64,000 bases of DNA, from the NCBI GenBank assembly GCA_016183775.1, contig JACPDY010000093.1, positions 62,001 through 126,000 of the forward strand. The letters are read 5' to 3'. Below, piece by piece: positions 13,946 to 37,331 of the stretch. The translations under genes were made by a program, and so were the position numbers. The notes under the pieces were generated by a model. It saw nothing but the letters and a program-made list of their open reading frames with translations, was not told where the DNA came from and searched no databases. Position 1 is the stretch's first letter, and each line of letters opens with the position of its first letter. This DNA comes from Bacteroidota bacterium. GTDB taxonomy: Bacteria > Bacteroidota > Bacteroidia > JABDFU01.

Positions 13946-13959
13946 CAAAAATAAAACAC

Positions 13960-14574: not shown

Positions 14575-14597
14575 TAGTGACAATAAAAGGAAGCGCC

Positions 14598-14831: not shown

Positions 14832-14849
14832 ACCTATAAAATCTATAAC

Positions 14850-15404: not shown

Positions 15405-15419
15405 AAAGGGGACTGTTTT

Positions 15420-15433: not shown

Positions 15434-15511
15434 TTATACTATATAAGTTAAATTATATAATATAATTATAAAAATGAACGCAATAAATGCCTATAAATAC
15501 TTATAAGAAAC

Positions 15512-15970
15512 GTGAACCAAACAGCAACCGCAAACAATTACAATCAACTGCAAGACAGTATTGATAAGGTCATTGGAAAAATTGGCCTTCGCAGAACCAA
15601 ATATCTATTAGACAGCTTTATTGATAATACCACTGTCACGCAAGGCGAGCGTGAAAAGATCAAAATGGTAACTCAATACCTGGTCAGCCTGACGGCAAAA
15701 GTATTTGAGTTAAAAGAGGAGCTGTTCTTCGTCAGTACTGTCCGTGAATACCGGGATGCAAGAATGTGTTGCTTTCACCTGTTACGAAAATACACGGAGG
15801 ACACTTACCCTAAAATCGGTTTGAACTTTAATTGTAGCTCACGGATTGTCATGTATGGCTGTTTCGCTGTGGAAGATCGTTTAGCCATGCCCAAAGGCAA
15901 TGCAAAATTTGTAGGCAACTATACCCTGCTTGAATCAAGGTTGATAGACTTTATTGGAAAAATTAATTAA
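15512..15970 (+). CDS. DnaA domain IV-like DNA-binding protein
   Basis: In this 152-residue protein, residues about 79-124 (YRDARMCCFHLLRKYTEDTY, PKIGLNFN, VMYGCFAVEDRL) follow the pattern of DnaA domain IV: 'AR..amyL.R..T..slp.IG..F....s.V.ha...ie..l'. There is no AAA+ domain, so it cannot be a full initiator. A stand-alone domain IV could act as an origin-binding or regulatory protein. The start is a GTG behind an AT-rich leader with its own promoter. It heads the gene group that includes the packaging-type ATPase. The similarity is judged by eye only. Confidence 0.5.
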   Translation: MNQTATANNYNQLQDSIDKVIGKIGLRRTKYLLDSFIDNTTVTQGEREKIKMVTQYLVSLTAKVFELKEELFFVSTVREYRDARMCCFHLLRKYTEDTYPKIGLNFNCSSRIVMYGCFAVEDRLAMPKGNAKFVGNYTLLESRLIDFIGKIN

Positions 15971-15977
15971 TCCCATC

Positions 15978-16853
15978 ATGGAAGATACAAAGGAACTTAT
16001 TGAAACTGTTTTAAAGAAGGATCCGCAGGACATTGCGTTTGAACCAATACCGGAAGAAAATGATAGCCCATTGGCGCAACCGGTGGTTAAAAAAACTCAT
16101 ACATCGGAAGATGTAGGTGATTCCAAGAAGGAAGGAAAGGACAGCGCAAACATAGGCGAAAATAAAGAGGAACCAAAAGTTAAGCCTAAAGAAAAGCCAA
16201 CAGATGCACCCGAACAGGAAATTGATGCCGAGCCAACCGAGGAAACAAAGAAAGATGGTGAATCCGGTAAGGAAGAAGAAGGCTTTGCTATCCCATTAGA
16301 ACACGCTGGCCTGATGGCAGACAGCATCATCGGTACAATTAATAATACCGTACTGGAAGTGGGTGGCGGTTACTTCGTAACAATCCGTAAGCATAAGGAC
16401 TTCTATGACTTTGAAGAAGTAATCCAGGTCATAGATGAGCAGAACGTTAAGAATGTTAAACGGATGAAGCTGGATGAAGAAGACAAAGCCTTACTTCGCC
16501 CACTACTTATTCACATACTTAGAAAAAAAGCTGCGGCACTCAGTCCTGAAAAGCAACTGCTAATGGTTGCACTATCCATCATTATCAAAAAAGCAAAAGT
16601 TGTTATGGAAATCCGTGCAGAAAATGAAATGCTTGTTGATCGCATTCGTGATATTATCAGGAAAGAAGTAAGAGCCTTCAAGGAGGAACAGGAGGAAGAA
16701 GAAGAAAATGAACAAGAGGAAACCGCCTCTGAAACCAAAGCAGAAAAAGACAAAGGAGAAGTAGCTGAAGTAATTTACGAGGAAACAATACAAAACCCAA
16801 AAGCAACCAACCGTACCGGAGTGCCTGATTCTGCATTGGAGACGTTTGAATAA
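15978..16853 (+). CDS. Hypothetical protein with charged flanks, ~291 aa
   Basis: It has a disordered charged N-terminus to about residue 95, rich in Glu, Lys and Pro. A compact central domain follows at about 98-235 (AIPLEHAGLMADSIIGTINN, LRPLLIHILRKKAAAL). The C-terminal tail is again Glu-rich. No membrane segment. The layout resembles scaffold or internal structural proteins, but no family was recognised. ATG 15978, seven bases after the upstream stop, is preferred over an upstream TTG at 15954. It directly precedes the ATPase. Confidence 0.55.
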   Translation: MEDTKELIETVLKKDPQDIAFEPIPEENDSPLAQPVVKKTHTSEDVGDSKKEGKDSANIGENKEEPKVKPKEKPTDAPEQEIDAEPTEETKKDGESGKEEEGFAIPLEHAGLMADSIIGTINNTVLEVGGGYFVTIRKHKDFYDFEEVIQVIDEQNVKNVKRMKLDEEDKALLRPLLIHILRKKAAALSPEKQLLMVALSIIIKKAKVVMEIRAENEMLVDRIRDIIRKEVRAFKEEQEEEEENEQEETASETKAEKDKGEVAEVIYEETIQNPKATNRTGVPDSALETFE

Positions 16854-16871
16854 TTATTGACCTGAAAATGA

Positions 16872-17789
16872 ATGTCTGCAATCGTAGAAAAACCAAAACT
16901 CTTTCAGGGAATAGTCCTCGTTAATAAGCAGGACGAGCGACAACCAATGTTAATGTTGGTTTGTGGCGAAACAGGTGTTGGTAAAACATTCCGAAACATT
17001 TTAGAAATTGAAAACTACTTGCGGGATCATCCTGGAGTATATAGAAAGGGACGTAAGGTTTTAATCTTCGATGTGAACGATGATGATTACGAATGCTACA
17101 CTACTGTCAGTCCCGATTTTATACGTGATTTAAGGAGTATTCGCGCCCGCAGAATACGTCCGCTTACCAAGTATGGTGAAACCATGTCCATTGAAGAAAA
17201 AAGGGATATGGTTGAACGCATGGTAAAGCAGTTCACAGACGGTCTGCTGGTATTGGAAGACTTGGACAAATACATGACAGGAGCCAAGGGCCAAACTATT
17301 GTAGGACTTCTTACCACAAACCGGCATCATGGTTTGGATATTATGATCTCCCATCAATCCATTGCTAAAATTACCACTACTGAATTTCAGAACTGTACTT
17401 GGTTACGCCTGCATAAACAAGTGGATGATGTAACCCGGTATCGTAACCGGATCCCCAATTATTTCCTGGTCCGTATTGCAACGATCATAGTCGAGGAACA
17501 ATATCTCATTGGAAACATCCGCTTTTTCGTTTATGTGAATATGAGAAAATTAAAGGTGCGGGGATGTAGCGTACCGGCCTTTATCCGAGCATGTAAAAAA
17601 TATCTCGATACAGAGGAAAACGGAATGATAAGACGAATGATGATGGAGCGAGATTTTTATAGCAAGCTAATTTATAAAAACCGGAATGAAGTAGTTGTTA
17701 AACTGATTGCTGAATTACTCCGCTACCACGAAGTGAATTTTCAAAGTCCTATTGCAACTGAAAAAATTGCTGAAGCAAAAGCAGCATAA
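16872..17789 (+). CDS. P-loop ATPase, FtsK/HerA/A32-like packaging type
   Basis: Walker A is GETGVGKT (32-39) and Walker B is LLVLED (125-130). The downstream signature TTNRHHGLDIMISHQS ends in the sensor Gln near 162. The 'RHh.....i.Q' pattern after Walker B is typical of genome-packaging ATPases of tailless double-jelly-roll viruses (A32/PRD1 P9 type) and of FtsK/HerA relatives including Zot. At 305 residues it fits these families, and it has no transmembrane helix, which argues against Zot. It is proposed to drive DNA into preformed particles. It is followed eight bases later by another small gene. Confidence 0.65.
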   Translation: MSAIVEKPKLFQGIVLVNKQDERQPMLMLVCGETGVGKTFRNILEIENYLRDHPGVYRKGRKVLIFDVNDDDYECYTTVSPDFIRDLRSIRARRIRPLTKYGETMSIEEKRDMVERMVKQFTDGLLVLEDLDKYMTGAKGQTIVGLLTTNRHHGLDIMISHQSIAKITTTEFQNCTWLRLHKQVDDVTRYRNRIPNYFLVRIATIIVEEQYLIGNIRFFVYVNMRKLKVRGCSVPAFIRACKKYLDTEENGMIRRMMMERDFYSKLIYKNRNEVVVKLIAELLRYHEVNFQSPIATEKIAEAKAA

Positions 17790-17796
17790 GTAACCT

Positions 17797-18165
17797 ATGT
17801 ATATACCAGCCAGTATCAACGAACTTTTAGAGGAACGAATTAAATTTTGTGAAACTGTATTAAGCAGGCAAGCTGAAATACCCGATTGCAGAAACAAAAA
17901 AAATATGATTGATGAGTTTGATTCTGAATTGAAAAACTTTAAGGAAATAAAAAGACTATCAGATGCAATTCCCCTATGCACAGATTATTCAGAGGAATAT
18001 AAAACCCGCAATCGTTTTTTCAAGTCAGCTTCCAAAATGATTTATAAAATGATTAACCATTGCAGGCAGCAAATGGAGGGGGTAAGCGATTTACTCACCA
18101 TTCATCAAACACTTGATTTAATTGAGGGCTTGGAGAAAATCAATCTGCAAGTAAGTGATGTGTGA
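17797..18165 (+). CDS. Hypothetical helical protein, 122 aa
   Basis: All-helical protein with Cys residues (KFCETVL, PDCRNKK, NHCRQQM) immediately downstream of the packaging-type ATPase and last gene of this plus-strand block. No family recognised and no membrane segment. The next genes lie on the other strand. Confidence 0.55.
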   Translation: MYIPASINELLEERIKFCETVLSRQAEIPDCRNKKNMIDEFDSELKNFKEIKRLSDAIPLCTDYSEEYKTRNRFFKSASKMIYKMINHCRQQMEGVSDLLTIHQTLDLIEGLEKINLQVSDV

Positions 18166-18215
18166 AGCCTCTGTTGAAACAAGAAGGCAAAGGGTTACTT
18201 CACCAGCTGATGCAA

Positions 18216-19040
18216 TTAGAATGCGTTAGCAGGAGTATTCTTCTTTATTGTTATTTGCCTGTGTACACCATCCCAAAGGTCAATGCGTTTTTGCAGAGCC
18301 TCTATGGTAGCCCGCTCTGCTTCATTCCAAAATTGTTCGTCTGAACCGCAAAGGTTTGATATCATTTGTAATGCAAGATGACTATGATGATCTCCGTCAA
18401 CCTCAATGTGCCTTTCAAGATAATATTTGAAAATTGAAATGCTGTCGGGAAAGTTTTTATGTATATCATTTACTATTGAAAGAAACATTCCGGGAATTAG
18501 GTCTTCTCGCCCAAAAGTGAAAATGGCTGATTGCAAATAATCCTTATTACTTACAATAATTTTGAAGGTAAAGTCAACAAAGTCACGAGCCTCTTTAGGT
18601 GTATTGGAAGATGTGAATGCTGTATTAAAGTCCCCGGTTTTTTTTAATTCTGCTATAAACTTTTTTATTTGGGAAGTGTCCGCCCCACATTGGTGCATAG
18701 CATCCAGGTATAATTCAAAATGGCTCTTTCTATTGCCGAAGCTGTCAAGATCAGATTCTTCGCCAACAACTATTTCATTAATAAGATGTCTTGTGTCTGC
18801 CGTACCTTTTGGAAACCAGGGAACCGAAGTGCAGGTCAGATTATTTTGCAGGGCTTTTAATAAAGACATGAAGTCCCAAACTGCAAAAACATGATATTGC
18901 ATAAAAACTTTAAGATCGTCTATATCATGGATTGCTGAATAAACTTTATGATTAATAATTTGTTGCCTCAAAGGTTCAATAGTTCTTTTAATTTTCTCTA
19001 TATGTTCGTTCATATTGTTGGCTGTCCTTTTTACAATCAT
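18216..19040 (-). CDS. DUF3050 family protein
   Basis: The 274-residue protein matches the DUF3050 pattern: HKVYSAIHDIDDLKVFMQYH, VFAVWDFMSLLKALQN, VPWFPKG, INEIVVGEESDLD, and ERHIEVDGDHH. DUF3050 proteins are all-helical and related to haem-oxygenase-like folds, with conserved His/Glu residues that could bind a metal. Their function is unsettled. An alternative ATG nine codons inside (19013) gives a more typical N-terminus (MNEHIEKI). It is in a cargo island inside the virus-like block, transcribed against it. Confidence 0.75.
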   Translation of the reverse strand: MIVKRTANNMNEHIEKIKRTIEPLRQQIINHKVYSAIHDIDDLKVFMQYHVFAVWDFMSLLKALQNNLTCTSVPWFPKGTADTRHLINEIVVGEESDLDSFGNRKSHFELYLDAMHQCGADTSQIKKFIAELKKTGDFNTAFTSSNTPKEARDFVDFTFKIIVSNKDYLQSAIFTFGREDLIPGMFLSIVNDIHKNFPDSISIFKYYLERHIEVDGDHHSHLALQMISNLCGSDEQFWNEAERATIEALQKRIDLWDGVHRQITIKKNTPANAF

Positions 19041-19551: not shown

Positions 19552-19591
19552 CCTATTCGATTACGTATATTTACCCCATAAGTTGATAAGA

Positions 19592-20623
19592 ATGTCCCAG
19601 TTTGATCTCATAAAAGATATTGCAAAATTTGGTCTGGAAAATGACAAGGAGAGGCTATTGGAGGTACTTAATGAATTAATTGAATATTCAAAAAAGACAA
19701 AAAAATTAAATTTTGCTCTACAACTACAATCAATTCTCAAAGAGGCTATTCGCACTCAGCAAACCAGTGGATTAACCAAGGTGGGATCTCCTCAACATTT
19801 TATGAGGGAAGAAGACAGAGAAATAGGTGAGTTTATTCTTGAAAAAGTTACTTCCGATTACCGTTTTGAAAATTTGGTCTGCTCCGATGAAGTGGAAGAA
19901 ACTTTAAAACTTTTTATTAAAGAGTATAAATCTGCGGATCTATTAAGACAATACGATTTACCTGTATCAAATAAAGTTTTGTTTCATGGCCCTTCCGGTT
20001 GTGGTAAAACTCTTGCTTCTTATGTTCTTGCAGGAGAGTTGAGTAAAATGATGATCGTAATTAATCTCGGAGCTATTGTTTCTTCTAAACTTGGTGAAAC
20101 AAGTAAAAACTTAGCAAAGATTTTCAGACGAGCTTCTGCGGAAGGATGTATCATTTTTATAGACGAATTTGATACGCTTGGAAAAGTAAGAGATTATAGC
20201 CAGGATCATGGTGAAATGAAAAGAGTTGTAAATACGATTTTACAGCTGTTTGATTATTTACCACAGGATAGCATGGTGATAGCTGCGACTAATCATGCAG
20301 AAATGATTGATAATGCTTTGCTCAGAAGGTTTGATCTTAAGGTTCATTTAGATTTACCCGACAATAAACATATTCAGGAACTCATAAATAAAACGTTAAA
20401 ATCCGATTTGTTTGAATTTGATAAACCTAAAGCACTTCCTCAAATAATCAAATCGTGTAAGGGACTTTCCTATTATTCAATTCAAAAAACACTTGTGACT
20501 ACAATCAAAAGGAGCATTTTTGAAATGGATAAAACAACCATTGGCGTAAAAGCCAAGATTAATACTACTCTGTGGTTGCAACTTCTTAAAAAAGAAATTC
20601 AGGACGACTCTTTAAGTAAATAA
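19592..20623 (+). CDS. AAA+ ATPase, IetA-like
   Basis: The 343-residue protein has an N-terminal helical part (1-75) and one AAA+ domain. Walker A is GPSGCGKT (133-140) and Walker B is IIFIDEFD (D191, E192). A sensor-1 region (VIAATNH) and a sensor/arginine stretch (ALLRRFDLKVHL) follow. AAA ATPases paired with a subtilisin-like protease form IetAS, known from Agrobacterium plasmid incompatibility and reported as an antiphage system. Here the protease is on the opposite strand, with only five bases between the gene ends. ATG 19592 is preferred to the in-frame TTG at 19583. Confidence 0.75.
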   Translation: MSQFDLIKDIAKFGLENDKERLLEVLNELIEYSKKTKKLNFALQLQSILKEAIRTQQTSGLTKVGSPQHFMREEDREIGEFILEKVTSDYRFENLVCSDEVEETLKLFIKEYKSADLLRQYDLPVSNKVLFHGPSGCGKTLASYVLAGELSKMMIVINLGAIVSSKLGETSKNLAKIFRRASAEGCIIFIDEFDTLGKVRDYSQDHGEMKRVVNTILQLFDYLPQDSMVIAATNHAEMIDNALLRRFDLKVHLDLPDNKHIQELINKTLKSDLFEFDKPKALPQIIKSCKGLSYYSIQKTLVTTIKRSIFEMDKTTIGVKAKINTTLWLQLLKKEIQDDSLSK

Positions 20624-20628
20624 GCTGG

Positions 20629-23055
20629 CTATTCTCCTATCTCAACATCAATATCAGGTTCAATAATGCCGATCACTTCTATTGTGTTAATGGCTGAAAG
20701 TTCATTGTAAAGACGGTTAGTATTCGTTTTCTCGTGAGGCAACTCTGTAAATGTTAATGCAAGTGAAAACTCATGTGAGTTTTTTGCAAGAATATCCGCA
20801 ACGGCATTATCAATCTCATCCTTATTGGTGCAGCGTATAGCAATACTTATTTCATTGCTGACATTACCTATATCTTCAGGCTGTAAATTATAATCAATCT
20901 TCTGAACATTACTCAGAAGTCTGTTTTCAATTCCAAAAAAGTCTTCAGACCATCGTATAGCTGTCTTGATTTGATATTCCTTTCCATCCTTCATAGCCAT
21001 ACCGGGAATATCCGGTTTAAAAACTCCAAAGCTGATATGCAATGGGCAATAAGAAAGATGATTGTCCTTTACAGGAAGAAATTTGTAACATAAAGTTGCC
21101 GTTACATTCAACTTATGATTGGTTTTATGTTTTGTTGGATTCAGGTATTCAGGTAGTTTGATCTTAATGAGTTTAAATTCCTCTACTGTAATAGTGTCTT
21201 CTATCACAAACGTAATGCTGTTTTCATTTGAAAACAGAACACTTTCACGATTTGGAGTGCCATTACCAATAAGTTTTTTCAACAATCCTTTTTCAGTAAA
21301 ATCAGGTGGGTTATTCCCACAAACAGAATCAGAGGCATTAATTAATAAGGCTTTTACAGTTTGTACTTTTAATTTTGGATATGCCGTTAAAATTTCCGCA
21401 GCGAGTGATGATACCAATGGGGTAGAAAAACTACTTCCGGCATTCCTTGTATAAAACTCTCCGGCATTAACTGAAAATACTTCCATACCAGCATTTTCAT
21501 CCAACAAGTCCCCTCCGGCAAAAACCATATCCGGCTTAACAAGATTTTTGTTTTTCTGATTTCTTGAAAAATTGGTTCCGTTAATTTGCTGGTTATAATC
21601 AAAATGAAATTTCCTTGCATAAGAAGCAGGATAAATCTTTGCGGGAGTTATTCCTGATGTATCTTCTTGTGTAAAATTTTCTGCTAATGCGCCAACAGTA
21701 ATATTATTAAGTGATTCAGAAGGAGTGCAAATATTCGTTGTTTCACACCTGTGGAAAGGACTGTCTGTATCAAGGCAATAGAAATAATTTGGGTAAGTAT
21801 GTGAATTGTGTGCATTCTCATAAAGCTCTTTCACTCTGTCATAATCAATATTACCGCTTGAAATAAAAATTAGCAGATCATTCCTGTAACTCAACAGGTC
21901 AAGCAAATAAGCGTAGTTTGAAAATGCAGAATTATATCTTTTTGGTGAATGATTTACAGAGAGATTAAACAAACGAACTCCCTTGCTATATGCGGCTTCA
22001 ATAGTGCCGATAAGATCATTATGACTAAAATTTCCTTCGGAATCTGTTAATACTTTAATAGGTACAATAAATGCCTTGCCCTGGTATTTCTCCTTTACTT
22101 CAGTAAAATATTCCACTCCAAGCGCTACCAATCCTGCCACCATTGTTCCATGCCCATGACTATCCCAATTTGCTGCGGTTCCTGTTAAGTCATAACTAAA
22201 ACCAGCCATAACACCTTTTAGTGGATCAATGTTTTGAACTCCTGTATCAATGATCCCAACGAAAGGTGCATTTTTATTTGGAGTAATTTCAATTCCAAAA
22301 CTTCGTATCACAGTTCCTAATCTGCCTGGTCGAACTTTACCAGCTCTCGTGCTTTGAACTGACTGTACGATATCAAAGTTGTCAGTTATTAAATCTATCT
22401 GTTCTTTTTGCAACTCATAAATTTCAAAAGCATTTCCATCTTTTTGATATGAAAATTTTAATTTATTTTCTTCTAAGTAAGCGTTTAATGCTTTAAATAT
22501 TTTATCTGTTTTCAGGCTGTACGGAGGAATAAGGTTGAACGAGGAAATCCGTTCATCATAAGCATTGATTATTTTACGTGAGTTGATAAACTCAAAATGA
22601 GAAATTAATACTATAAGATTATATTCTTGTCCTTGAAAAGGCTGGTCATCCGAACTATTATAATATAATTCCAAATGCTTTTGAAAAACTTTAAATAACT
22701 CCTCGTTGTCAATTGCAAATAATACAGTTTTATTGAAATCAAAAAAGGATAATACTTGCAATCCATATTTTTTAATAAACTCCTTTTGTAAGCTGTGATT
22801 GAAAACCTTAAAAAAATGTATTCTAACCTGGTCAATATGCTCCGATACAGCAATAGTCCTCTTGTTATGCCTATTTCTTTTTTCAATATTGAAAATTCTA
22901 CTATCCTCTTTTAATTTGTCCTTCTGAGGCGTGTAATTTTTTTCTTCTTCTTCCTCTGGTGGCTTTGTTTCAAAGCCACGATTCTTTTTAAACTTCTCAG
23001 AAGATGTTGCCTGATTTTTTAAAAACAGATGAGGTAATTTTTTGTTTTCCGGCAT
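20629..23055 (-). CDS. Subtilisin-like serine protease (S8), IetS-like
   Basis: The 808-residue protease has the S8 triad: Asp270 in GIIDTGV, His302 in HGHGTMVAG, and Ser542 in GSSFSTP. A long N-terminal region (1-250) is charged and lacks a signal peptide, so the enzyme is probably cytoplasmic. The C-terminal ~230 residues form a beta-rich region. This size and order resemble the protease partner of the IetAS pair. A -7 box lies 29 bp upstream. The convergent orientation to the ATPase is unusual and leaves no room for a terminator between them. Confidence 0.8.
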   Translation of the reverse strand: MPENKKLPHLFLKNQATSSEKFKKNRGFETKPPEEEEEKNYTPQKDKLKEDSRIFNIEKRNRHNKRTIAVSEHIDQVRIHFFKVFNHSLQKEFIKKYGLQVLSFFDFNKTVLFAIDNEELFKVFQKHLELYYNSSDDQPFQGQEYNLIVLISHFEFINSRKIINAYDERISSFNLIPPYSLKTDKIFKALNAYLEENKLKFSYQKDGNAFEIYELQKEQIDLITDNFDIVQSVQSTRAGKVRPGRLGTVIRSFGIEITPNKNAPFVGIIDTGVQNIDPLKGVMAGFSYDLTGTAANWDSHGHGTMVAGLVALGVEYFTEVKEKYQGKAFIVPIKVLTDSEGNFSHNDLIGTIEAAYSKGVRLFNLSVNHSPKRYNSAFSNYAYLLDLLSYRNDLLIFISSGNIDYDRVKELYENAHNSHTYPNYFYCLDTDSPFHRCETTNICTPSESLNNITVGALAENFTQEDTSGITPAKIYPASYARKFHFDYNQQINGTNFSRNQKNKNLVKPDMVFAGGDLLDENAGMEVFSVNAGEFYTRNAGSSFSTPLVSSLAAEILTAYPKLKVQTVKALLINASDSVCGNNPPDFTEKGLLKKLIGNGTPNRESVLFSNENSITFVIEDTITVEEFKLIKIKLPEYLNPTKHKTNHKLNVTATLCYKFLPVKDNHLSYCPLHISFGVFKPDIPGMAMKDGKEYQIKTAIRWSEDFFGIENRLLSNVQKIDYNLQPEDIGNVSNEISIAIRCTNKDEIDNAVADILAKNSHEFSLALTFTELPHEKTNTNRLYNELSAINTIEVIGIIEPDIDVEIGE

Positions 23056-23565: not shown

Positions 23566-24438
23566 ATGAATAAATATAACGAAGAAATTCGCAGGTATGA
23601 AAAAGAGGCCGAAGACAAGTACGATGATTTTGATGACGACAATTATGATGACGATAATTTCGACACCGGACTTGAAGGCCAGGATTCGTATGATGAAGAT
23701 TCATACGAAGAAGTAGAATACATCGGAGAAGACAGCTACGATGATGATTCATACGACAGCTATGAGCAGGCTTCCATCGGAAAAATCAATCCGAATGACA
23801 GAACTCTTACCATTTCCATCACTAATACCAGCGGAGCAGATGCGGAAGCAATCGTATTCGGTGGTAACGAAGGCGCAGCCCAACCAGCAGGCGTACTTGT
23901 CGTGGTTCAGGAAAGCTCACACAACGAGGTAAGAGAAGAAAGCAAAGCCAATCCGTTCAAGATCCAAGGTATGAAAATGTCTGTGTCTGATCCGTTGCAG
24001 TTTGATAGCGTATGGAAAATCCTACGTAAATCAGCAGCCGGTTCCTTCAACTCGCATCCATACCAACCTCGTAACGCAACATCGCCTCAAAATACTAACC
24101 CTAATTTGATTGACGATAGCGCATTTGAGATGGATGTTACCGGACAGGACAGCATCCGCTTCTTCCAAAAAGCAGGTGTAAAAACCACGCTGACCTTCAC
24201 CATCAAAGCTCGTGTTGATATGGGTAATGTATTGTCGGGACAAAACGTTGCGGAAATTTCCACAGCACCACGCCCAACAGGTTTACCTCAAATCGACTTG
24301 GCTAAACAAGCCCCAAAACCAGTGTTCGGTGTGAAACCAAGAATGAAAAAAATGGTTCGCAAAATCGTTCGCAGGCCAATAGGCGGTGGAAAACAAAGAC
24401 CAGGTGGACCAAAAAGGCTGTTAAGAAAACGCAGATAA
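23566..24438 (+). CDS. Candidate major structural (capsid-like) protein
   Basis: The 290-residue protein has three parts. Residues 1-66 form a very acidic Tyr/Asp segment. Residues 70-225 form a beta-rich domain (TLTISITNTSGADAEAIVFG, NPFKIQGMKMSVSD, TTLTFTIKARVDM). The tail is strongly basic (MKKMVRKIVRRPIGGG) and suited to nucleic acid contact. The central domain is homologous by eye to both ends of the propeller protein at 28445. A strong terminator follows at once, as expected for an abundant product. It is the best candidate for a major capsid or coat protein of the element, possibly a jelly roll; this is inference. Confidence 0.5.
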   Translation: MNKYNEEIRRYEKEAEDKYDDFDDDNYDDDNFDTGLEGQDSYDEDSYEEVEYIGEDSYDDDSYDSYEQASIGKINPNDRTLTISITNTSGADAEAIVFGGNEGAAQPAGVLVVVQESSHNEVREESKANPFKIQGMKMSVSDPLQFDSVWKILRKSAAGSFNSHPYQPRNATSPQNTNPNLIDDSAFEMDVTGQDSIRFFQKAGVKTTLTFTIKARVDMGNVLSGQNVAEISTAPRPTGLPQIDLAKQAPKPVFGVKPRMKKMVRKIVRRPIGGGKQRPGGPKRLLRKRR

Positions 24439-24465
24439 GCTGTATTCAGCTAAGGGTTAAACAGA

Positions 24466-24507
24466 AAAAGCCAAAGCGGGAAACCCTCTCAGCTTTGGCT
24501 TTTTTCA
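24466..24507 (+). terminator. Strong Rho-independent terminator
   Basis: AAAAAGCCAAAGC, a 13-base loop region, then GCTTTGGCTTTTTTC: a near-perfect GC-containing stem ending in a T6 run, 27 bp after the capsid-like gene. It probably lets a short transcript of the two genes 23309-24438 be made in excess, with partial readthrough into the rest of the operon. Confidence 0.85.
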
Positions 24508-24545
24508 CAAAAAGTAAAAACCACAAACCCATTAATTAAAAAACC

Positions 24546-25073
24546 ATGTGCAAAGGAAAAGCGCAAAACAGGATAGACTACATCGTATTGCAAAAGCCGT
24601 TTGATGCAGCCAAGATTGTTGAGAAATATGGATATGAAGCTCCAAAAAAAGTTGAGGACTTGGTTAAATCCGTTAAGCTCCTTGTGAAGAAAAAAGGAGA
24701 ACCGGTTATCAAAGAGTTGATCAGCATACACCCGGAGAAAAAACTCATACTGGAAGTATCAGGACATAAAAGCGATGAGAGTAACTATTGCGGTTGCCAT
24801 AGCTCTTATTCGGGAGAAACAAAAGACCTGCTCGACAAACTTTCAGAGTTATCGGTTGACGATCTGACCAAGCTCTATGACGATACGAAGATGCAATCCA
24901 AAGATAACCCGGAGGACAAAACCATGATGGCCCAGGTAGAAACCATTTGGGATGAACTGAAACGCAGAAAAAAGCAAACACAAAAAATTGAAGGCAAACA
25001 GGAAAACAGTGTTTGGCTGAAAATATCTATTGGAGTTATTGCGGGAATAATCATTGGAAAATCTCTTAGCTAA
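24546..25073 (+). CDS. C-terminally anchored protein, 175 aa
   Basis: It has a soluble helical domain with Cys residues (YCGCHSS), a charged helix, and one C-terminal membrane helix at about 156-172 (WLKISIGVIAGIIIGKSL). No family recognised. The stop overlaps the ATG of the next gene (TAATG), indicating coupled translation. Confidence 0.65.
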   Translation: MCKGKAQNRIDYIVLQKPFDAAKIVEKYGYEAPKKVEDLVKSVKLLVKKKGEPVIKELISIHPEKKLILEVSGHKSDESNYCGCHSSYSGETKDLLDKLSELSVDDLTKLYDDTKMQSKDNPEDKTMMAQVETIWDELKRRKKQTQKIEGKQENSVWLKISIGVIAGIIIGKSLS

Positions 25074-25693
25074 TGGTAAGGATCACAGGCAGGGACAAAC
25101 CAAAGGAGCAGGAAGTAAAACTTACCGAGAAATCTAAAGCCATGCTTCAGATCATCGGGATCCTTATTGCTGATAAACCTAAAGCTGTTCGTGAGCTTTT
25201 GGAAAATTACAGCATTGAGCTGACGGAAAAACCTGATGACAAGGAACTGACTGAAAAACTATTATCCGCAGTTGGTGAATGCAACAAAGAGTTTAACAAT
25301 GAGCTGGGAAGTATTATCCTGGACTGCACACTTGAAAGTGAATATGACAGCTTTGATTTTAAATCTCTTTTCAATAAGGGAGGCGATGCAGAAGCAGAAG
25401 AAGGTAGAGGATCTTCCGGTGGTGGTGGAATATTGGGAGGAATTACCAATGCGATTGGCGGGATTGCCGGATCAATCGGTGCAGGGAAAAGAGCAAGAGA
25501 AGAAGCTACCTCAAAAACACTTCAGGGAATATATGCTTACAAGGCACAACTGGCAGCAAACGAACAAAGCAAAGGCAAAAACAAAATGTATATGCTCATC
25601 GCTCTTTTTGTTTTGCTTGGATTAGCACTCGCAGCAATGGCCTTTTACGCAAAGAAACAATCGGAAGAACAACCATTACCATTAAAAGTCTAA
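25073..25693 (+). CDS. C-terminally anchored protein with Gly-rich hinge, 206 aa
   Basis: It has an N-terminal helical domain (1-100) and a Gly-rich amphipathic stretch at about 115-140 (GGGGILGGITNAIGGIAGSI) that resembles membrane-active peptides. One membrane helix lies at about 172-192 (MYMLIALFVLLGLALAAMAF). No family recognised. It could be a membrane-puncturing or internal-membrane virion protein. Confidence 0.6.
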   Translation: MVRITGRDKPKEQEVKLTEKSKAMLQIIGILIADKPKAVRELLENYSIELTEKPDDKELTEKLLSAVGECNKEFNNELGSIILDCTLESEYDSFDFKSLFNKGGDAEAEEGRGSSGGGGILGGITNAIGGIAGSIGAGKRAREEATSKTLQGIYAYKAQLAANEQSKGKNKMYMLIALFVLLGLALAAMAFYAKKQSEEQPLPLKV

Positions 25694-25697
25694 AACC

Positions 25698-26147
25698 ATG
25701 ATACTACAAAAAAACAATTTCGGTCTTACTGGTCTTTCAAATTACGCAGGCTATGATGATGATTACGATAATCTATTTGCCAGGTTAAAAGAAAGGAGAG
25801 CCGAAAAAAAAGAAGCAAGGCAGGAAAAAAAAGCCGATAGGAAACAGCGCAAAGATGAAAGAAAAAGTGAAAGGCAGGAAAAGCGTGAACTCAACAGCGA
25901 AAAGAAAAGGCTGAAAAACGAACTGAAGCAAACACAAATTGATGAAAAGAAATCTCAACTCTCCATGCTCAATCAGGCAGGCGCAGCACCCTCACCGGGA
26001 TTACCTCCTCCAGCCGGAGGAGATAACTCCATGATGATGGTTGCAGCGGTTGTGGGAGTAATATTCATTGCAGGCATCGGCTGGGTAATGATGAAAAAGA
26101 AACCATCTCCGGCAGCTGCTCCGGTTGTATATGCAAAAGCAGCTTAA
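25698..26147 (+). CDS. Basic-helix membrane protein sharing an N-terminal motif
   Basis: The N-terminus has an acidic patch and then YDNLFARLKERRAEKK. A very long Arg/Lys/Glu helix follows to about residue 95, then a Pro/Gly hinge. One membrane helix (about 110-132) and a short tail ending in KAA complete it. The YD-LF--LK--R--KK motif recurs in the proteins at 26174 and 27088. No family recognised. Confidence 0.6.
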   Translation: MILQKNNFGLTGLSNYAGYDDDYDNLFARLKERRAEKKEARQEKKADRKQRKDERKSERQEKRELNSEKKRLKNELKQTQIDEKKSQLSMLNQAGAAPSPGLPPPAGGDNSMMMVAAVVGVIFIAGIGWVMMKKKPSPAAAPVVYAKAA

Positions 26148-26173
26148 TCACTAACAATTAAAAATAAAAAACC

Positions 26174-26812
26174 ATGATTATCGGAGAAACAATCAACAGC
26201 GGATACGATGGATACGAAGAAGAAAATTACGACTATCTGTTCAAACGCAAAAGCAAAGAGGAACGCCAGCAAAAGAAAACGGTGCGACAAGAAAAACGTG
26301 CCGAAAAAAAACAAGTCAAACAGGTAAAACGCCAGGAAAAAAAGGCGACCAAAGCAGCTACACCAAAAAAGCATCCCATTCTTGGAAACTTCGGATTGTT
26401 CAATAAGAACAAGAAAAAGGAAGCGGCAGCAGCAAAAACTGCGGGTTCATCCGGTGCGTCAGGTTCTTCCGGGAAGAATGAAGCGGACAGCGATTCCGGT
26501 TCTACATCAGGTGGTGAGGGAAATCAATCAGGAAGTGGATTAACAGCTTTAGCAGCCGGAGCAGCTGGCTTACTGGATAAATCCAAAGGAGGCAATGATC
26601 CCGCAAGTGAATCAGCAGGAGAAGGAAACGAAGGAGCAAAATCGGAAAGCAAAGAACTTGATGCAAATGGTAATCCTAAAAAGCAAGCAGGTATGGGAGC
26701 TATGTTCGGTTTTGTTTGCCTGGGTGTTGTTATCCTGGTTGTAGGAGTGGCGATCTACAAAGCGGACAAGAAACCTATTTCAGAACTACAACCACTAAGA
26801 GCCGCAGCATAA
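26174..26812 (+). CDS. Basic-helix membrane protein sharing an N-terminal motif
   Basis: It has an acidic start (GYDGYEEENYDYLFKRKSKE) and a Lys/Arg-rich helix (25-65). A long Ser/Gly/Glu-rich disordered middle is followed by one membrane helix at about 173-195 (FGFVCLGVVILVVGVAIY) and a tail ending in AAA. The architecture matches its neighbours at 25698 and 27088. Unknown family. Confidence 0.6.
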   Translation: MIIGETINSGYDGYEEENYDYLFKRKSKEERQQKKTVRQEKRAEKKQVKQVKRQEKKATKAATPKKHPILGNFGLFNKNKKKEAAAAKTAGSSGASGSSGKNEADSDSGSTSGGEGNQSGSGLTALAAGAAGLLDKSKGGNDPASESAGEGNEGAKSESKELDANGNPKKQAGMGAMFGFVCLGVVILVVGVAIYKADKKPISELQPLRAAA

Positions 26813-26848
26813 GTTAAACTCCGTCTTTGACGGTAAAAAATAATTGAC

Positions 26849-27076
26849 ATGGACATATTAGCAGATCCGCATGAACAGGAAGTAACGATTGATGGAGCAA
26901 CCCCGCAGGGAGCATTGTTTGTTTCTGTGAAAAACACAGGAGCCAACATCGCAACTTTTAATGGAGTATCGCTACCTCCGGGAGAAGCAAAGAGCTACTC
27001 CTTTGTTGGAAAGGGCTATAAGGCATTGCCTTATGTTGTCAATGGTTCAACGCTCAAAATACTTTACATCCTATAA
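26849..27076 (+). CDS. Small beta-rich protein, 75 aa
   Basis: It is a compact all-beta sequence without a membrane helix (LFVSVKNTGANIATFNGVSL, GYKALPYVVNGSTLKILYI). It could be a minor capsid, spike-base or decoration protein, given its place among structural-type genes. No family recognised. Confidence 0.55.
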   Translation: MDILADPHEQEVTIDGATPQGALFVSVKNTGANIATFNGVSLPPGEAKSYSFVGKGYKALPYVVNGSTLKILYIL

Positions 27077-27087
27077 AACTTAAAGCA

Positions 27088-27642
27088 ATGATTAGAGCCG
27101 AAAAAGCAAATCGCATCATGCAGCTTTATGAAAGTGATTACGACAACTTTCTTGATAAGCTAAAGGCGAAACGCAAAGCAAAAAAAGAAGCGGCAGCGAA
27201 AACAAAAGTTGAAGCAGACACCGCTGATAAAACAGTAAACGAAGCCGAGGCACATAAAAAAGTGCATCTCGGACAAAAGGCAAAAAACCTATTGGACAAG
27301 GTCGGAGGTTTTGAAGGCGCTTCAGGTACTATTCAGAACGTGATGAAATACTTTAAGAGTAGCGAGCCTTCCGACTATGAAATGAGCATGGGTGGAGAAA
27401 GTGAAGATCCCAAAGGTGAAAAAAAGATTATGGGGCTTCCACCGATAGCAGTTTATGTGGGCGGTGCTGTACTTGCGCTGGCTGTATTATACGGCTTATC
27501 CCGGATGATGAAAAAAAGTAAAGATATACCGGCACAAGTGAAAGCACCGGTACAAGCACCTGCACCTGTTCCAGTTCCTTCACCAGTGGTAGAAGTTCCA
27601 ATAGCAGCACCAGTAGAAGAAGTTTTAAAAGCAGCAGCGTAA
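27088..27642 (+). CDS. Basic-helix membrane protein sharing an N-terminal motif
   Basis: The N-terminus holds ESDYDNFLDKLKAKRKAKKE, the third copy of the acidic/YD...LK.+R..KK motif. A helical segment, one membrane helix at about 114-136 (PIAVYVGGAVLALAVLYGL), a Pro/Ala/Val tail and a terminal KAAA follow. Unknown family; probably a virion-membrane or assembly protein. Confidence 0.6.
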   Translation: MIRAEKANRIMQLYESDYDNFLDKLKAKRKAKKEAAAKTKVEADTADKTVNEAEAHKKVHLGQKAKNLLDKVGGFEGASGTIQNVMKYFKSSEPSDYEMSMGGESEDPKGEKKIMGLPPIAVYVGGAVLALAVLYGLSRMMKKSKDIPAQVKAPVQAPAPVPVPSPVVEVPIAAPVEEVLKAAA

Positions 27643-27647
27643 ACAAC

Positions 27648-28445
27648 ATGGTTATTCCTATTCCATCACAACAGCAACAGTTTAAAGTCAAGGTAGGCGT
27701 TCGTGCCTATGAGCCTTGTGCTTTGGGCGTGAAATGCTATGATGCAACGAAGCCCAATACGGATTATATCCGCAGGCGTGTTCCCTTTACCCAGGAATTA
27801 TTCAAAGGGAGGAATCCGGGGTATAAAGAATTTACACTTCCTTTTCCACTTTCACCGGATCAGCTCATGGTGGAGATGTATGATAAAGCGTATGGTGACG
27901 ATCAGAATTTTCGCATTGAAAAATTTGAATTGGAAAAGATTTTACCGAGAAGTGTTTGGGCAGAACCGGAGGTACATCGTTTTATAGGTTTCGCACAGGA
28001 TTTTGCTACAAAAGCAGGTTACCTGCCTACCGGAGTATATGACAGCAAAGACGGTGATTTTTTGATTCAATACCTGCCGGTAATTGCAGACGAAGAAGGA
28101 AATCCATTAGTAACACCTGCACGGACCAACCGCAAATCAGGAAGGATACAAGTAGCGCAATCAGCTTTTGCAAAATTCACCATCCCGGTAAGGATGGTGG
28201 TCTTGTTCCATGAACGCTACCATTATCAGATACCAACACGTTTGGAAAAACCTGCCGACCTACACGGTTTACGCTTATACCTGGACTTGGGATTTCCAAG
28301 AACAGAAGCGGTTTACGCTACCACTAAAATATTCAATTCCCATCCCGAATCAGTCGGACAAGGACATAGAAACAGGGTGAAAGACATTGTGAATTTCATT
28401 GATAATTATTCAGGGAGAGAAAATTTAAAAATGAACAGAGCTTAA
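27648..28445 (+). CDS. Protein with HExxH motif, zincin-like candidate
   Basis: The 265-residue soluble protein carries FHERYH (H188-E-R-Y-H192), the zinc-binding pattern of metallopeptidases, followed by helical sequence with Asp/Glu/His that could give a third ligand. The N-terminal half is beta-rich. No specific family was recognised. Within a structural operon it could be a maturation protease for capsid or membrane proteins, or a structural protein with a chance motif. Its stop overlaps the next start (TAATG). Confidence 0.55.
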   Translation: MVIPIPSQQQQFKVKVGVRAYEPCALGVKCYDATKPNTDYIRRRVPFTQELFKGRNPGYKEFTLPFPLSPDQLMVEMYDKAYGDDQNFRIEKFELEKILPRSVWAEPEVHRFIGFAQDFATKAGYLPTGVYDSKDGDFLIQYLPVIADEEGNPLVTPARTNRKSGRIQVAQSAFAKFTIPVRMVVLFHERYHYQIPTRLEKPADLHGLRLYLDLGFPRTEAVYATTKIFNSHPESVGQGHRNRVKDIVNFIDNYSGRENLKMNRA

Positions 28446-30358
28446 TGAAACGTACTGGCAACATAGGTATTAACGGATTGGCGCAAAGCCTCAAAAAGAT
28501 TTTTGCTGAAAAGAAAAAATCTAAGGAGGACAACTTTGTTGAAAAAACCTATGAGGGAACTGACGATAATTTTTTTGAAGCAACCAATACAAATCTTCGT
28601 AAAGCACTTAATCTGGATAAGAAAAGTGAGAGCTATGAAAAGGATTTAAAAAGGTTTGGTACACGCATTAAATTAATTGATGTTGCGGATGATGCTATTC
28701 CAAACAGAAGAAATAAAGAAATTCTGCCTCTTAGAAAACCCTCTAAGGCTAAATGTTTTAAAGAGAAGTATAAAAAAGATGTAGAACGTTTCGGTACACG
28801 CCAGGGAATTATCAATGTGTCGAACGATGAATATGTAAAGAAGAAAAAGCCAGTTCCTTTTCCTACTGATTTCAGTAAGGCCGTTTACAAATCCATGATG
28901 AGCAAATGGAAAAAACGTGAGGTAACTCCCTTTTCTGTTAATCCCTATTCAGATATATTCCGTGAATTTCCTAAAGCACAGATTACCATTCAAAACAAAT
29001 CCACAGAGGAAAAAGAAGTTGTATTGTGGGGAGGAAATCAAAATATCAGTACAAGCCCGCCTGCTCCCGGTGATGTTCAGGATCATACAGTAATTGCTCA
29101 AATCAGTATTCCTTCAGGAGTACATCCGCAAGGCATTGTAGTTAATCCTGCAAACCAGCTTGTTTATATTGCAAATCAACTAAGCGGTACTATCACGGTA
29201 TTGGATTCCAACAACCAGGTAGTAAAAGTTATTCAGCTTGAACCAACTTTTCCCGGTTTCACATCACCGGTTGCATTGACTGTTAATACAAAAAGTACAA
29301 GCGCAAAATACGGTTTTGTGTACGTGGTTTGTTCAGTTGCAAATACACTTGCAGTTATTGATTTATCCTTGAATGTAGTCGCAACCATCCCTGTGGGTTC
29401 ACGCCCGATAGCCATTGCTTTTAATCCGGTAAACACTAAAGTCTATGTAGCCAACCTTGTGAGCGATAACATGAGTGTCATTGATGCGGATGCATTAACA
29501 GAAATTGCAGGCTCTCCATTGCCAACCGGCCAGGATCCTATTGGAGTTGGAATTAATCCTGTAACAGGAGATATCTATACTGCTAATTCACTTGGTAACA
29601 GCATTACTGTTTATGACAGCAACAATATACTTGTAACGACTATTCCGGCAGTTGGTCTATATCCCGTTTCCATTACCTACAATCCGGCTAACAACAGTAT
29701 GTATGCGGTTGCTACCAATAACAATTTTGTTTATCAGATTGAAACGCTTACCCATACCATCGTTGGAATAATTGAAGCAGGAAGTAAGCCATATAACAGC
29801 TTCTTTGATTCTTACAATGGATACCTATATGTTCAGAACCGCCAAGACAATACGTTTACTATTATCCGTCCGGACAACAGTAAAATTGACGGATTAAGTT
29901 TCGGTGAACAAAACATCGGTGGAGCATTCAACAGCTTTAACAATTCAATATACGTTTCCGATACCAGCAATAACACGATCAATGTTATTGGCTATTTACA
30001 GGTAAGCAGCACAATTTCCATTAACTCCGATTACCCGGAAATGCGAGAGGATTTTCAAAGCAATCCTGCTGTGATACAACACGCAAAATTTGTTGTAACA
30101 GGGCTGGAACGCTTAAACAGTTTTCGCATCAACAAGTTTACGCCAACAGGCACAGTCAAAAGCAAACCACTCTCATTTGAATTATATGCAAGTCCTCAAA
30201 GCGCATTGAATGTTGCTGAAGTAACAGAACTGGCCGGAACTGTCATAGATGGAAAAATGAACTGGAGGTTTAAGCTACCGGGACTACATACAGTGAGTGT
30301 CCTGGTATGGTATCGGCAATTTGAGGTCAGAGATCTTTTACAAAATAATTACAAATAA
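28445..30358 (+). CDS. Capsid-like domain with inserted 7-bladed YVTN propeller
   Basis: The 637-residue protein has a basic N-terminus (1-170), including a twice-repeated box (RFGTRIKLIDVADD and RFGTRQGIINVSND). A beta-domain begins near 177 (AQITIQNKSTEEKEVVLWGG). A seven-bladed YVTN-type propeller spans about 220-515 (for example NPANQLVYIANQ, NPVNTKVYVANL, NPVTGDIYTANS). The domain is completed at 516-637. The flanking halves match the protein at 23566 (ITNTS...VFGGN; REESKANPFKIQ versus REDFQSNPAVIQ). I infer a vertex or spike protein in which the propeller displays a binding surface. Confidence 0.6.
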   Translation: MKRTGNIGINGLAQSLKKIFAEKKKSKEDNFVEKTYEGTDDNFFEATNTNLRKALNLDKKSESYEKDLKRFGTRIKLIDVADDAIPNRRNKEILPLRKPSKAKCFKEKYKKDVERFGTRQGIINVSNDEYVKKKKPVPFPTDFSKAVYKSMMSKWKKREVTPFSVNPYSDIFREFPKAQITIQNKSTEEKEVVLWGGNQNISTSPPAPGDVQDHTVIAQISIPSGVHPQGIVVNPANQLVYIANQLSGTITVLDSNNQVVKVIQLEPTFPGFTSPVALTVNTKSTSAKYGFVYVVCSVANTLAVIDLSLNVVATIPVGSRPIAIAFNPVNTKVYVANLVSDNMSVIDADALTEIAGSPLPTGQDPIGVGINPVTGDIYTANSLGNSITVYDSNNILVTTIPAVGLYPVSITYNPANNSMYAVATNNNFVYQIETLTHTIVGIIEAGSKPYNSFFDSYNGYLYVQNRQDNTFTIIRPDNSKIDGLSFGEQNIGGAFNSFNNSIYVSDTSNNTINVIGYLQVSSTISINSDYPEMREDFQSNPAVIQHAKFVVTGLERLNSFRINKFTPTGTVKSKPLSFELYASPQSALNVAEVTELAGTVIDGKMNWRFKLPGLHTVSVLVWYRQFEVRDLLQNNYK

Positions 30359-30383: not shown

Positions 30384-30950
30384 ATGAACAACAAATTAAA
30401 TTACTTAGTGCTTCATTGCACAGCAACGCCTGAAGGCAGACCAGTTAGCAAAGACGATATTATTCGCTGGCATACAAACCCTGTTCAGCTTGGCGGACGT
30501 GGCTGGAACCGTCCCGGCTATTCTGACATTGTAGAACTGGATGGAGATTTAGTAAGCATCATCCCTTTCAATACAGACGACTTTGTAGATCAGTGGGAAA
30601 TCAGCAATGGTGTTGTAGGACTGAACGGAAACGCCCGTCATATCGTGTACGCTGGTGGCATTGACAAAGAGAACAAATCACCTAAAGACACTCGCACCAA
30701 AGAACAGTTGGCAACTCTTGAAGTGTATGTAAAATACACCATTAAGCGCCATCCTAAAATTTTGGTATTGGGACATAACGAAGCTCCCAACGCACATGGT
30801 AAAGCCTGCCCAAGTTTTAACGTGGGGGAATGGTTACGCTCCATTGGAGTTTTGGAGGCGAACATTTACCACAAACCGGTAGAAGAAGAAAGGAAAGAAG
30901 TGGTAGCATCCGCAGCGGTAGAAACAAACTCTACTGAAGCGGAAGCATGA
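30384..30950 (+). CDS. N-acetylmuramoyl-L-alanine amidase (Amidase_2/PGRP type)
   Basis: The 188-residue enzyme shows the family core: VLHCTATPEG (zinc ligand H11), GWNRPGYSDIVELDGDL, RHIVYAGG, LGHNEAPNAHGKACPSF (ligands near H131 and C142). It cleaves the amide bond between muramic acid and the stem peptide. It has no signal peptide, as in phage endolysins that rely on a holin. The C-terminal tail is Glu/Ala-rich. It overlaps the next gene by ATGA. Confidence 0.85.
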   Translation: MNNKLNYLVLHCTATPEGRPVSKDDIIRWHTNPVQLGGRGWNRPGYSDIVELDGDLVSIIPFNTDDFVDQWEISNGVVGLNGNARHIVYAGGIDKENKSPKDTRTKEQLATLEVYVKYTIKRHPKILVLGHNEAPNAHGKACPSFNVGEWLRSIGVLEANIYHKPVEEERKEVVASAAVETNSTEAEA

Positions 30951-34091: not shown

Positions 34092-36257
34092 ATGAGCTTT
34101 ATCGGAGGATACCAAAGTGATGTAAATCTCAACGACATAAATTTTGTCGGAGATTTTCCTATTGACCATTCCATAGGAGGCTTCGGTATAACTACCGGAG
34201 TTGATGATTACCTGCTTGTTTTAACACCTGCCATTTTACAATACCGTCAGGGCTTACCATTGGAGGTAAGATTTTCTCAACCGAACACCGGAGCAGTAAC
34301 AATCAATGTTAATGGAAGGGGTATAATTGCAATTAAGAAAATTGTTGCTGGAGTATTGGTTAACCTGGAAGCGGGAGATCTGACTAACGACAAAGTTTAT
34401 ATTTTAATTTATGACGGAACTGTCTTTCAGATTGCCAATAGCAGTCATTTATTGTTGGATGCAACAGAGACACGCATGGGCATTTCACAAATAGCCACTT
34501 CTCAAGAAGTAGTTGACGGTGTGGATAATAGTAAAATCGTTACCCCTGCTAAATTGGCTTCTTATATTGCAGATAAAGTAACAGGGCTTTGGGAAGACCA
34601 AGGTCTTATTGATTGCTCAACTAATCCACTTTATCCGGCTGGTCAAACAGGAAATGCTTACACAGTAAGTACAGCAGGAAAAATTGGCGGACTATTTGGA
34701 CCAAATGTAGGGGTAAGAGATATTATTTATTGTAACATAGATAATGAAGGTGGAGACGATGAAAATGTTGGACACAATTGGACGATTATTCAAGCAAATT
34801 TAGAGCAAGCCTCCGAAGTAATTGCAGGATTTGCTAAAATCGCAACGCAAGCAGAGATTACTTCTGGAATTAATGATACCAAATTCATCACTCCATTAAA
34901 ACTAATTACATGGTTTGCTTCGCAACTGGCAACCGAGCTTCAGCCGGGAATTTCAGAAAGAGCTACACAGGCAGAAGTAAATGCAGAACTTGACGATCAA
35001 AGACACATTACTCCTCTTAAACTTATTAACTGGTTTATAACAAAAACCGCAACGGAAGCAATAGCTGGTATCGCTGAAATTGCAACGCAAGCAGAAGTTA
35101 CTGCTGGAGTTGATGATACCAGGTTCGTCACTCCACAAAAGCTGGCAGCGTATGTAGCAGGTAAGATAACTGGCTTATGGGAAGATAAAGGAACAATTAA
35201 TTGCGCTGGAAATCCAAATTATCCTGCCGGGCTAAAAGGAGATGCTTATACAGTCAATGTTGCCGGTAAAATTGGTGGGCCAGCAGGAATAAATGTAGAA
35301 GTAAAAGACGTTATCTACTGTAATAATGATAATCCGGGTGGAACACAATTAGCGGTTGGAGCAAACTGGACTATTATTCAAGCTAACCTTGAACAGGCTA
35401 CTGAATTGTTAGCTGGCTACTCTGAATTAGCTACGGTAGCTGAAGTAAATACAGGTATTGATGACCAACGTATAATTACCCCTTTTAAATTAAGGGTTTT
35501 GTTAGATAACCGTCTTGCAACGGAAATTTTATCAGGCTTGATCGAACTTGCAACTCAGGCAGAAGTAAATGCTGGTTTAGATGATATCCGGGCAGTAACC
35601 TCCCTGAAGCTGATGACACTCCTCAATGCACTTTTAAAATATCAGGCAGGCGCAGGTGTAAATTCCATTATACCAAAATTAGGAGTGAACAATACTGCTC
35701 CTGGCTCTCATGCTGCTGTATTAAATGGAAACAATAACCGAGCTAATAGCACCTTTAGTGTAGCTATTGGAAGTTATGCAGATGCGTGGCAGTTCAATGA
35801 ATATAGCAAAGCTCCGGGAGCTTTTTTTGCTACCCAGGGAAGTGTTCAACATAGTGTTTTAACTATTTGGAACATTGTGCCGTCTGGTGGAGGAATATAC
35901 CCAATCAACTTGGATGGCGGTGGAGCAAGTGCTTCTAACCGTTGGAGGATTCCCAATAATTCAATCATACAGTTTATGTTGCAGTTTAGCATTGTGCAAA
36001 ATTCCGGTTCAGCGGGAACAATTGGTGATACCTGGACAGCCATTTATGAAGGCGTGGCAAAAAATGTGGGCAATGTTATTTCATGGGTAGGTGGAGCGCC
36101 TACTGCAAGAGAAATTCGTCAGGATGCAGGTCTTTCTCCCTCAGTTTCTTTCGGGACTTCAGGAAACGAACTTATTCCTATTGTAATTGCTATTGCTAAC
36201 AAGAATCTTCATGTAAACATTACAGGATATATCACGCAAACCAAATTTAGTCTTTGA
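34092..36257 (+). CDS. Fibre / receptor-binding protein with repeated modules
   Basis: The 721-residue protein has many copies of the phage tail-fibre repeat 'ATQAEV.aGvDD.r.vTP.KL'. It has two copies of an ~80-residue module, near 166-245 and 361-440, each starting LWED.G.I.C and ending WTIIQANLEQA. The C-terminal domain (about 575-721) has YADAWQF, GSVQHSVLTIWNI and RIPNNSIIQFML. It resembles C-terminal domains of marine phage fibres that bind hosts. It is the likely adsorption protein of the particle. The presence of fibre repeats does not require a tail. Confidence 0.75.
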   Translation: MSFIGGYQSDVNLNDINFVGDFPIDHSIGGFGITTGVDDYLLVLTPAILQYRQGLPLEVRFSQPNTGAVTINVNGRGIIAIKKIVAGVLVNLEAGDLTNDKVYILIYDGTVFQIANSSHLLLDATETRMGISQIATSQEVVDGVDNSKIVTPAKLASYIADKVTGLWEDQGLIDCSTNPLYPAGQTGNAYTVSTAGKIGGLFGPNVGVRDIIYCNIDNEGGDDENVGHNWTIIQANLEQASEVIAGFAKIATQAEITSGINDTKFITPLKLITWFASQLATELQPGISERATQAEVNAELDDQRHITPLKLINWFITKTATEAIAGIAEIATQAEVTAGVDDTRFVTPQKLAAYVAGKITGLWEDKGTINCAGNPNYPAGLKGDAYTVNVAGKIGGPAGINVEVKDVIYCNNDNPGGTQLAVGANWTIIQANLEQATELLAGYSELATVAEVNTGIDDQRIITPFKLRVLLDNRLATEILSGLIELATQAEVNAGLDDIRAVTSLKLMTLLNALLKYQAGAGVNSIIPKLGVNNTAPGSHAAVLNGNNNRANSTFSVAIGSYADAWQFNEYSKAPGAFFATQGSVQHSVLTIWNIVPSGGGIYPINLDGGGASASNRWRIPNNSIIQFMLQFSIVQNSGSAGTIGDTWTAIYEGVAKNVGNVISWVGGAPTAREIRQDAGLSPSVSFGTSGNELIPIVIAIANKNLHVNITGYITQTKFSL

Positions 36258-36800: not shown

Positions 36801-37331
36801 ATGAAAATTACACGCAAGCAGGTATTTTGGGGACTTGGAATAACAGCCGGGTTAATTACCATTGGTGTATTGGTTCATAAGCACCGCAAGAAAATTAAGG
36901 AGATTGCGGAAGAAGCCGCAGAAAAAGCCCAAAGCTGGCTCCGTCCGGTGGTCGCTAAAATAACCAGCAAGTTCGGATATCGCACAGATCCCAAAACCGG
37001 AAAGCAAAATGCCTTTCATAACGGTATTGATTTAGCTGTTCCCGTTGGAACACCGATTAAAAGCCCTATGCCGGGCATTGTGGATGCTCTTACTTCGGGA
37101 GGGGATGGAGGCAGCCAGGTTATCATTAAACACGATAACGGCTATAAAACCGGATATGCTCATTTATCCAAGCAGCTGGTGAAGAAAGGCGATAAGATAA
37201 AGCAGGGTGATGTTATTGCACTCTCTGGGAACACGGGAAAAAGCACTGGCCCACATTTGCACTTAACATTAACGGATCCCTCCGGCGCTAAGGTTGATCC
37301 GCAAAAAATGCTTTATTCTGGTGTAGTGTAA
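36801..37331 (+). CDS. Membrane-anchored M23 metallopeptidase
   Basis: The 176-residue protein has an N-terminal anchor helix (about 8-26) and an M23/LytM domain: SKFGYRTDP, FHNGIDLA (H73, D77), YAHLSKQL, SGNTGKSTGPHLHLTL (H152, H154). It hydrolyses peptide cross-links in peptidoglycan. The combination of anchor and active site suggests cell-wall opening at entry or exit by a particle or at lysis. It is the last gene of the late operon. Confidence 0.8.
   Translation: MKITRKQVFWGLGITAGLITIGVLVHKHRKKIKEIAEEAAEKAQSWLRPVVAKITSKFGYRTDPKTGKQNAFHNGIDLAVPVGTPIKSPMPGIVDALTSGGDGGSQVIIKHDNGYKTGYAHLSKQLVKKGDKIKQGDVIALSGNTGKSTGPHLHLTLTDPSGAKVDPQKMLYSGVV

Follow-up and report, generated by a model that had tools for sequence, protein, structure and literature searches.

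The window analysed here, a stretch of 64,000 nucleotides, lies on a Bacteroidia contig of 127,634 bases and contains the greater part of an element of ~45 kb, whose genes extend from ~6 kb left of the window to position 37,331 and keep their order in other genomes. In sequence, the element encodes helix-turn-helix regulators, a possible replication protein, a glycosyltransferase, a large methylase, helicases and a DnaA-C-like protein, followed by a Zot-like ATPase and then a structural block with an amidase, a fibre and an M23 peptidase. To the left lie ordinary host genes (by reading), e.g. a phosphoglucomutase-like gene, and to the right host PorP and SprB-repeat genes. The features relevant to the present analysis are as follows:

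16872–17789, forward strand: Zot-like P-loop ATPase, a possible packaging ATPase (Pfam Zot, E 3e-4; phrog_2666), conserved in distant relatives
23566–24438, forward strand: p23566, 290 aa, with an acidic N-terminus, an eight-stranded core (residues ~76–222) and a basic C-terminus; probable major capsid protein
24546–27642, forward strand: five small proteins (24546, 25073, 25698, 26174 and 27088), probable virion membrane proteins, based on a hydrophobic C-terminal segment in the sequence and on synteny
27648–28445, forward strand: zincin-like protein with an HERxH motif invariant in an alignment of 8 homologues; possible maturation protease
28445–30358, forward strand: p28445, 637 aa, an N-terminal extension followed by a barrel split by a propeller
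28937–29080, forward strand: N-terminal piece of the split barrel (residues 165–212; strands 177–184 and 190–194), based on the profile match to p23566 and on strands
29084–29995, forward strand: inserted seven-bladed YVTN/YncE-type propeller (residues 214–517; VIA Z 35), without a match to p23566
29996–30334, forward strand: C-terminal piece of the split barrel (residues 518–630; strands 3 to 8), based on the profile match to p23566 and on strand agreement
30384–30950, forward strand: amidase, for lysis or entry (phrog_822, E 5e-40)
34092–36257, forward strand: tail-collar-type fibre of 721 residues with a variable C-terminus (phrog_910, E 1e-54)
36801–37331, forward strand: M23 peptidase (Pfam M23), the rightmost of the element's conserved genes

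Reading of the block revealed many single-pass membrane proteins. The zincin-like protein carries a conserved PADL segment downstream of its HERxH motif and returned no significant family or structure match; a role in virion maturation as a protease is possible.

Full-length relatives of p23566 were present in seven of 395 sampled Bacteroidia genomes (~2%), the window's own included. Two hits (L024 and L056) lay near the threshold and contained internal stops, and were treated as chance. Five queries with these genes yielded no relatives in IMG/VR, and neither did searches of phage records using the zincin-like protein and the ATPase, which denotes absence in these searches only. Within the element no integrase was found, and its ends showed no direct repeats or tRNA-derived att sites; the integrase encoded near the contig's right end (63764–65086 in window coordinates) is probably part of another element. 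Three genomes have a tRNA gene (Arg or Met) at the element's left end (L030, 11425–11499; L043, 10084–10158; L049, 9775–9849), but its sequence was not found repeated at the right. As integrase, att repeats and relatives in virus collections were not found, the term provirus derives from gene content, by which the element is apparently an undescribed Bacteroidota provirus and probably a tailless, membrane-containing one.

p23566 and p28445 are homologous over one beta domain. BLASTP of the pair alone returned two collinear matches, one on each side of the propeller (p23566 117–175 vs. p28445 528–585, E 0.001; p23566 83–102 vs. p28445 180–199, E 0.033), thereby recovering both of the separated places at which the initial annotation of this DNA had aligned the two products by eye. 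Profiles were then compared with hhalign, built on homologues from ten Bacteroidota contigs (80–93% identity) and three more distant genomes (~58–62%). With the propeller deleted, a comparison the same annotation had proposed as a check on the shared fold, p28445 matched p23566 significantly (probability 95.7%, E 9.3e-9). Each flank also matched by itself (C flank, E 3e-5; N flank, E 1.5e-4), whereas the propeller, serving as an internal control, did not (probability 0.2%, E 0.32). The real pair scored 59.2 compared to a maximum of 23.0 in 300 column shuffles and 13.9 for the reversed profile, and no other protein of the window came near this score. On single sequences, Smith–Waterman alignment gave the joined flanks of p28445 a score of 76 (maximum of 53 in 400 shuffles), while the 33 scored by the propeller equalled the shuffle mean. 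The shuffles, together with the propeller as internal control, rule out chance similarity. The similar beta-rich region reported after the second match was likewise borne out: the distance between a common 'SPQ' and the final strand's end is ~41 and ~39 residues in the two proteins, the whole domain is collinear, and predicted strands coincide at aligned positions in two separately built AlphaFold models (phi 0.54), agreement dropping to about zero or below once the alignment is slid by at least 5.

The insert in p28445 is a complete seven-bladed YVTN/YncE-type propeller lying between the two matches, as had been read from the sequence. AlphaFold placed it at residues 214–517 (pLDDT ~60–95), within a few residues of the earlier estimate of ~220–515, and Pfam returned Lactonase and YNCE for p28445. 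VIA aligned at least 280 residues with seven-bladed YncE and virginiamycin B lyase (Z ~35), and matches across propellers of this type, now including an archaeal surface-layer protein, covered at least 270 residues (Z 33–35). From these, the propeller of p28445 differs in being nested within another domain: according to the predicted strands, it is inserted between barrel strands 2 and 3. The barrel parts of the p28445 model are of low confidence, with block means of 30–69. All nine complete p28445-type sequences aligned (the window's and eight relatives) possess the propeller, so the insertion predates the divergence of these elements; a search of 395 genomes from the phylum detected no p28445 relative devoid of it. 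The literature searched yielded no description of a jelly-roll capsid protein with an inserted propeller, which is not proof of absence. The N-terminal extension of p28445 (window 28631–28828) contains a repeated unit, SYEKDLKRFGTRIKLIDVADD and KYKKDVERFGTRQGIINVSND, of which a distant relative in L025 has a single copy.

The viral jelly-roll is an eight-stranded barrel composed of two four-stranded sheets, BIDG and CHEF. The model of p23566 contains eight strands in order within residues 78–218, with a core pLDDT of mostly 40–74. Foldseek matches to this model were individually non-significant, yet the top of the list consisted mostly of virus coats. VIA-align aligned the full barrel with capsid neighbours that included the second barrel of PRD1 P3 (Z 6.0), STIV (5.3), cowpea chlorotic mottle virus (5.2) and brome mosaic virus (5.1), all with Z at or below 6, and values under 8 may reflect common arrangement only. 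We therefore grade the shared domain of p23566 and p28445 as a likely viral jelly-roll, its capsid-like nature being supported by the predicted fold, not proven. A sequence-profile search of solved structures gave no meaningful match.

Two-capsid-protein single jelly-roll viruses belong to the kingdom Helvetiavirae; they have membrane proteins and are characterised by a membrane beneath the shell. SH1, HHIV-2 and HCIV-1 (VP7 and VP4) as well as P23-77 (VP16 and VP17) encode a pair of single-barrel proteins that look homologous, the one plain, the other interrupted by an additional beta domain; the VP16/VP17-type insert, located in the DE loop, is a ~75-residue small barrel that forms a turret (PMC6441041). 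The packaging ATPase of two-capsid-protein single jelly-roll viruses is FtsK-like (PMC8812541). The VP16/VP17 and VP7/VP4 viruses are the closest precedent for the present element, which encodes two homologous single-barrel proteins in one genome, one of them with an inserted beta domain; their homology is demonstrated and their capsid roles are presumed. The element also has membrane proteins (by reading) and, as a possible counterpart of an FtsK-HerA-type packaging ATPase, the Zot-like P-loop ATPase at 16872. It differs in that a propeller of ~300 residues occupies the site between strands 2 and 3 in place of a DE-loop barrel (predicted strands compared with PMC6441041), and further in the lack of any sequence similarity found, in its Bacteroidota hosts, in its larger size and in the non-adjacent position of the two genes. 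Given the missing small DE-loop barrel and these other differences, we file it as a variant that may work like VP16/VP17, not as a member. Double jelly-roll viruses, for their part, typically have an ATPase of the FtsK-HerA type and a single jelly-roll minor protein (PMC5894146). This group (PRD1, PM2, FLiP and Bacteroidetes relatives) comes into view as p23566 has its top capsid neighbours in STIV and the second barrel of PRD1 P3; Pfam, PHROGs and sequence reading recognised no double-barrel candidate in the block.

The best explanation, to which we assign a probability of about 0.5 as a whole, is that the two proteins are capsid-type paralogues of an apparently undescribed, probably tailless and membrane-containing Bacteroidota provirus, with p23566 as the major capsid protein and p28445 as a minor or vertex protein that would dock into the same lattice via its barrel. 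p23566 suits the main shell protein, as it is the smallest form, its barrel is the most conserved, and reading of the structural block revealed no further obvious coat candidate. Across host families, identity amounted to 66–69% for p23566, compared to 37–46% for the barrel and 46–53% for the propeller of p28445; the lower conservation of p28445, together with the long extension at its N-terminus, is more in keeping with a minor or vertex protein than with a second major one, without being decisive. The propeller, in turn, would serve as a rigid platform, e.g. one holding the fibre at 34092 or a membrane protein, and not as a fast-evolving receptor binder, since in all pairs it is as conserved as the barrel or slightly more so. 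In its favour are the homology seen with the propeller removed, the identity of the propeller, the mostly viral structural neighbours, and the synteny of the block with its Zot-like ATPase, membrane proteins, amidase, fibre and M23 peptidase. Against this explanation count the low to moderate confidence of the barrel models, Z values that never exceed 6, the lack of known particles, the failure to find relatives in the virus collections searched and the failure to find an integrase or att repeats. Moreover, when strands are counted from B to I, the predicted insert falls into the CD loop and lies on the barrel side that bears the termini, which is not where one would expect a spike pointing outward; the propeller could thus be directed inward, or the orientation of the barrel could be reversed.

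Ligand binding is frequent among propellers, and spikes are commonly made by domain insertion into a coat protein, which lends some appeal to p28445 as a receptor-binding spike with an outward-facing propeller that attaches to the host surface. We consider this improbable, as a receptor-binding head would hardly be conserved as much as the barrel in all pairs, and as a separate protein, the fibre at 34092, has the varying C-terminus: most of its relatives match only to about residue 500 of 721, as expected of a receptor binder, which suggests the fibre as the variable candidate. A live alternative, more probable than the spike but less so than the best explanation, treats both proteins as major capsid proteins in mixed capsomers, as in P23-77 (VP16/VP17) and SH1 (VP7/VP4), the propeller replacing the small-barrel turret. 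The design is the same (PMC6441041), with one uninterrupted single barrel and one homologue into which a beta domain is inserted, and the block offers no other coat candidate; yet p28445 is far less conserved than p23566, has a long N-terminal extension and an insert between strands 2 and 3 instead of in the DE loop, and is separated from p23566 by six genes. Least probable to us is an element that is not a virus at all, the pair being part of a different assembly, secreted or at the surface, built with a similar beta domain. The weak structural Z values, the low model confidence, the missing integrase and the absence from the virus collections searched would fit such an assembly, but the structural neighbours are mostly virus coats, and the syntenic block also contains phage-type genes for an amidase, a fibre and an ATPase.

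The initial annotation had further proposed that a vertex or spike protein could evolve from a capsid protein in this way. Of this reasonable evolutionary story, the homologous beta domain with its inserted propeller, capsid-like by predicted fold, stands; the vertex or spike role and descent from p23566, as opposed to a common ancestor, are not established. With the propeller present in each of the nine aligned p28445 sequences, no propeller-less intermediate was seen; evolution of p28445 into a spike is accordingly kept as a hypothesis. Tentatively, and with somewhat less conviction than we hold the best explanation itself, the element may represent a new lineage of Bacteroidota single jelly-roll membrane viruses, apart from the known two-barrel viruses, in which a capsid gene was duplicated and one copy acquired a complete seven-bladed propeller, since retained as a permanent component of the shell. 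If so, a domain of 300 residues can nest in a capsid barrel and persist for a long time, in a design that we did not find described elsewhere; the two-barrel capsid design, invoked to account for how PRD1-like viruses arose, would possibly have an independent case; and Bacteroidota would harbor a virus group that the searched virus collections did not show.

Two other small Bacteroidota elements, L065 (G219:C81, ~5700–18600) and L067 (G359:C227, ~6000–14700), have the phrog_2666 type of ATPase in common with the present one and encode zincin-like proteins related to that at 27648 (BLASTP, 1e-6 and 3e-5). Each also encodes one coat-like beta protein; these match one another (hhalign 95%, E 1.8e-8) and gave no match to p23566 (probability 0.3%). 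Given the unmatched coat-like proteins, both elements were set aside; they may be another undescribed virus group. In L067 (9066–10441), a near-identical stretch, M(I/T)TPNLIYE(Q/H)SI..NTDP(I/V)YSNF, recurs in three proteins whose C-terminus has a membrane segment; it stands at the N-terminus or just past the zincin-like part and is possibly an assembly tag or protease site. Three of the small membrane proteins in the window (25698, 26174 and 27088; 25698–27642) possess an acidic N-terminal motif, YD(N/Y)(F/L)(L/F), that recalls this stretch.

Between the Zot-like ATPase and p23566, the anti-phage defence genes present vary among genomes (window 19583–23055; L025, 17242–18884; L026, 7017–9335; L029, 8497–11873): IetAS in the window, AbiE plus an LmuB-like gene in G378, and restriction-modification or MADS-like genes in G110.
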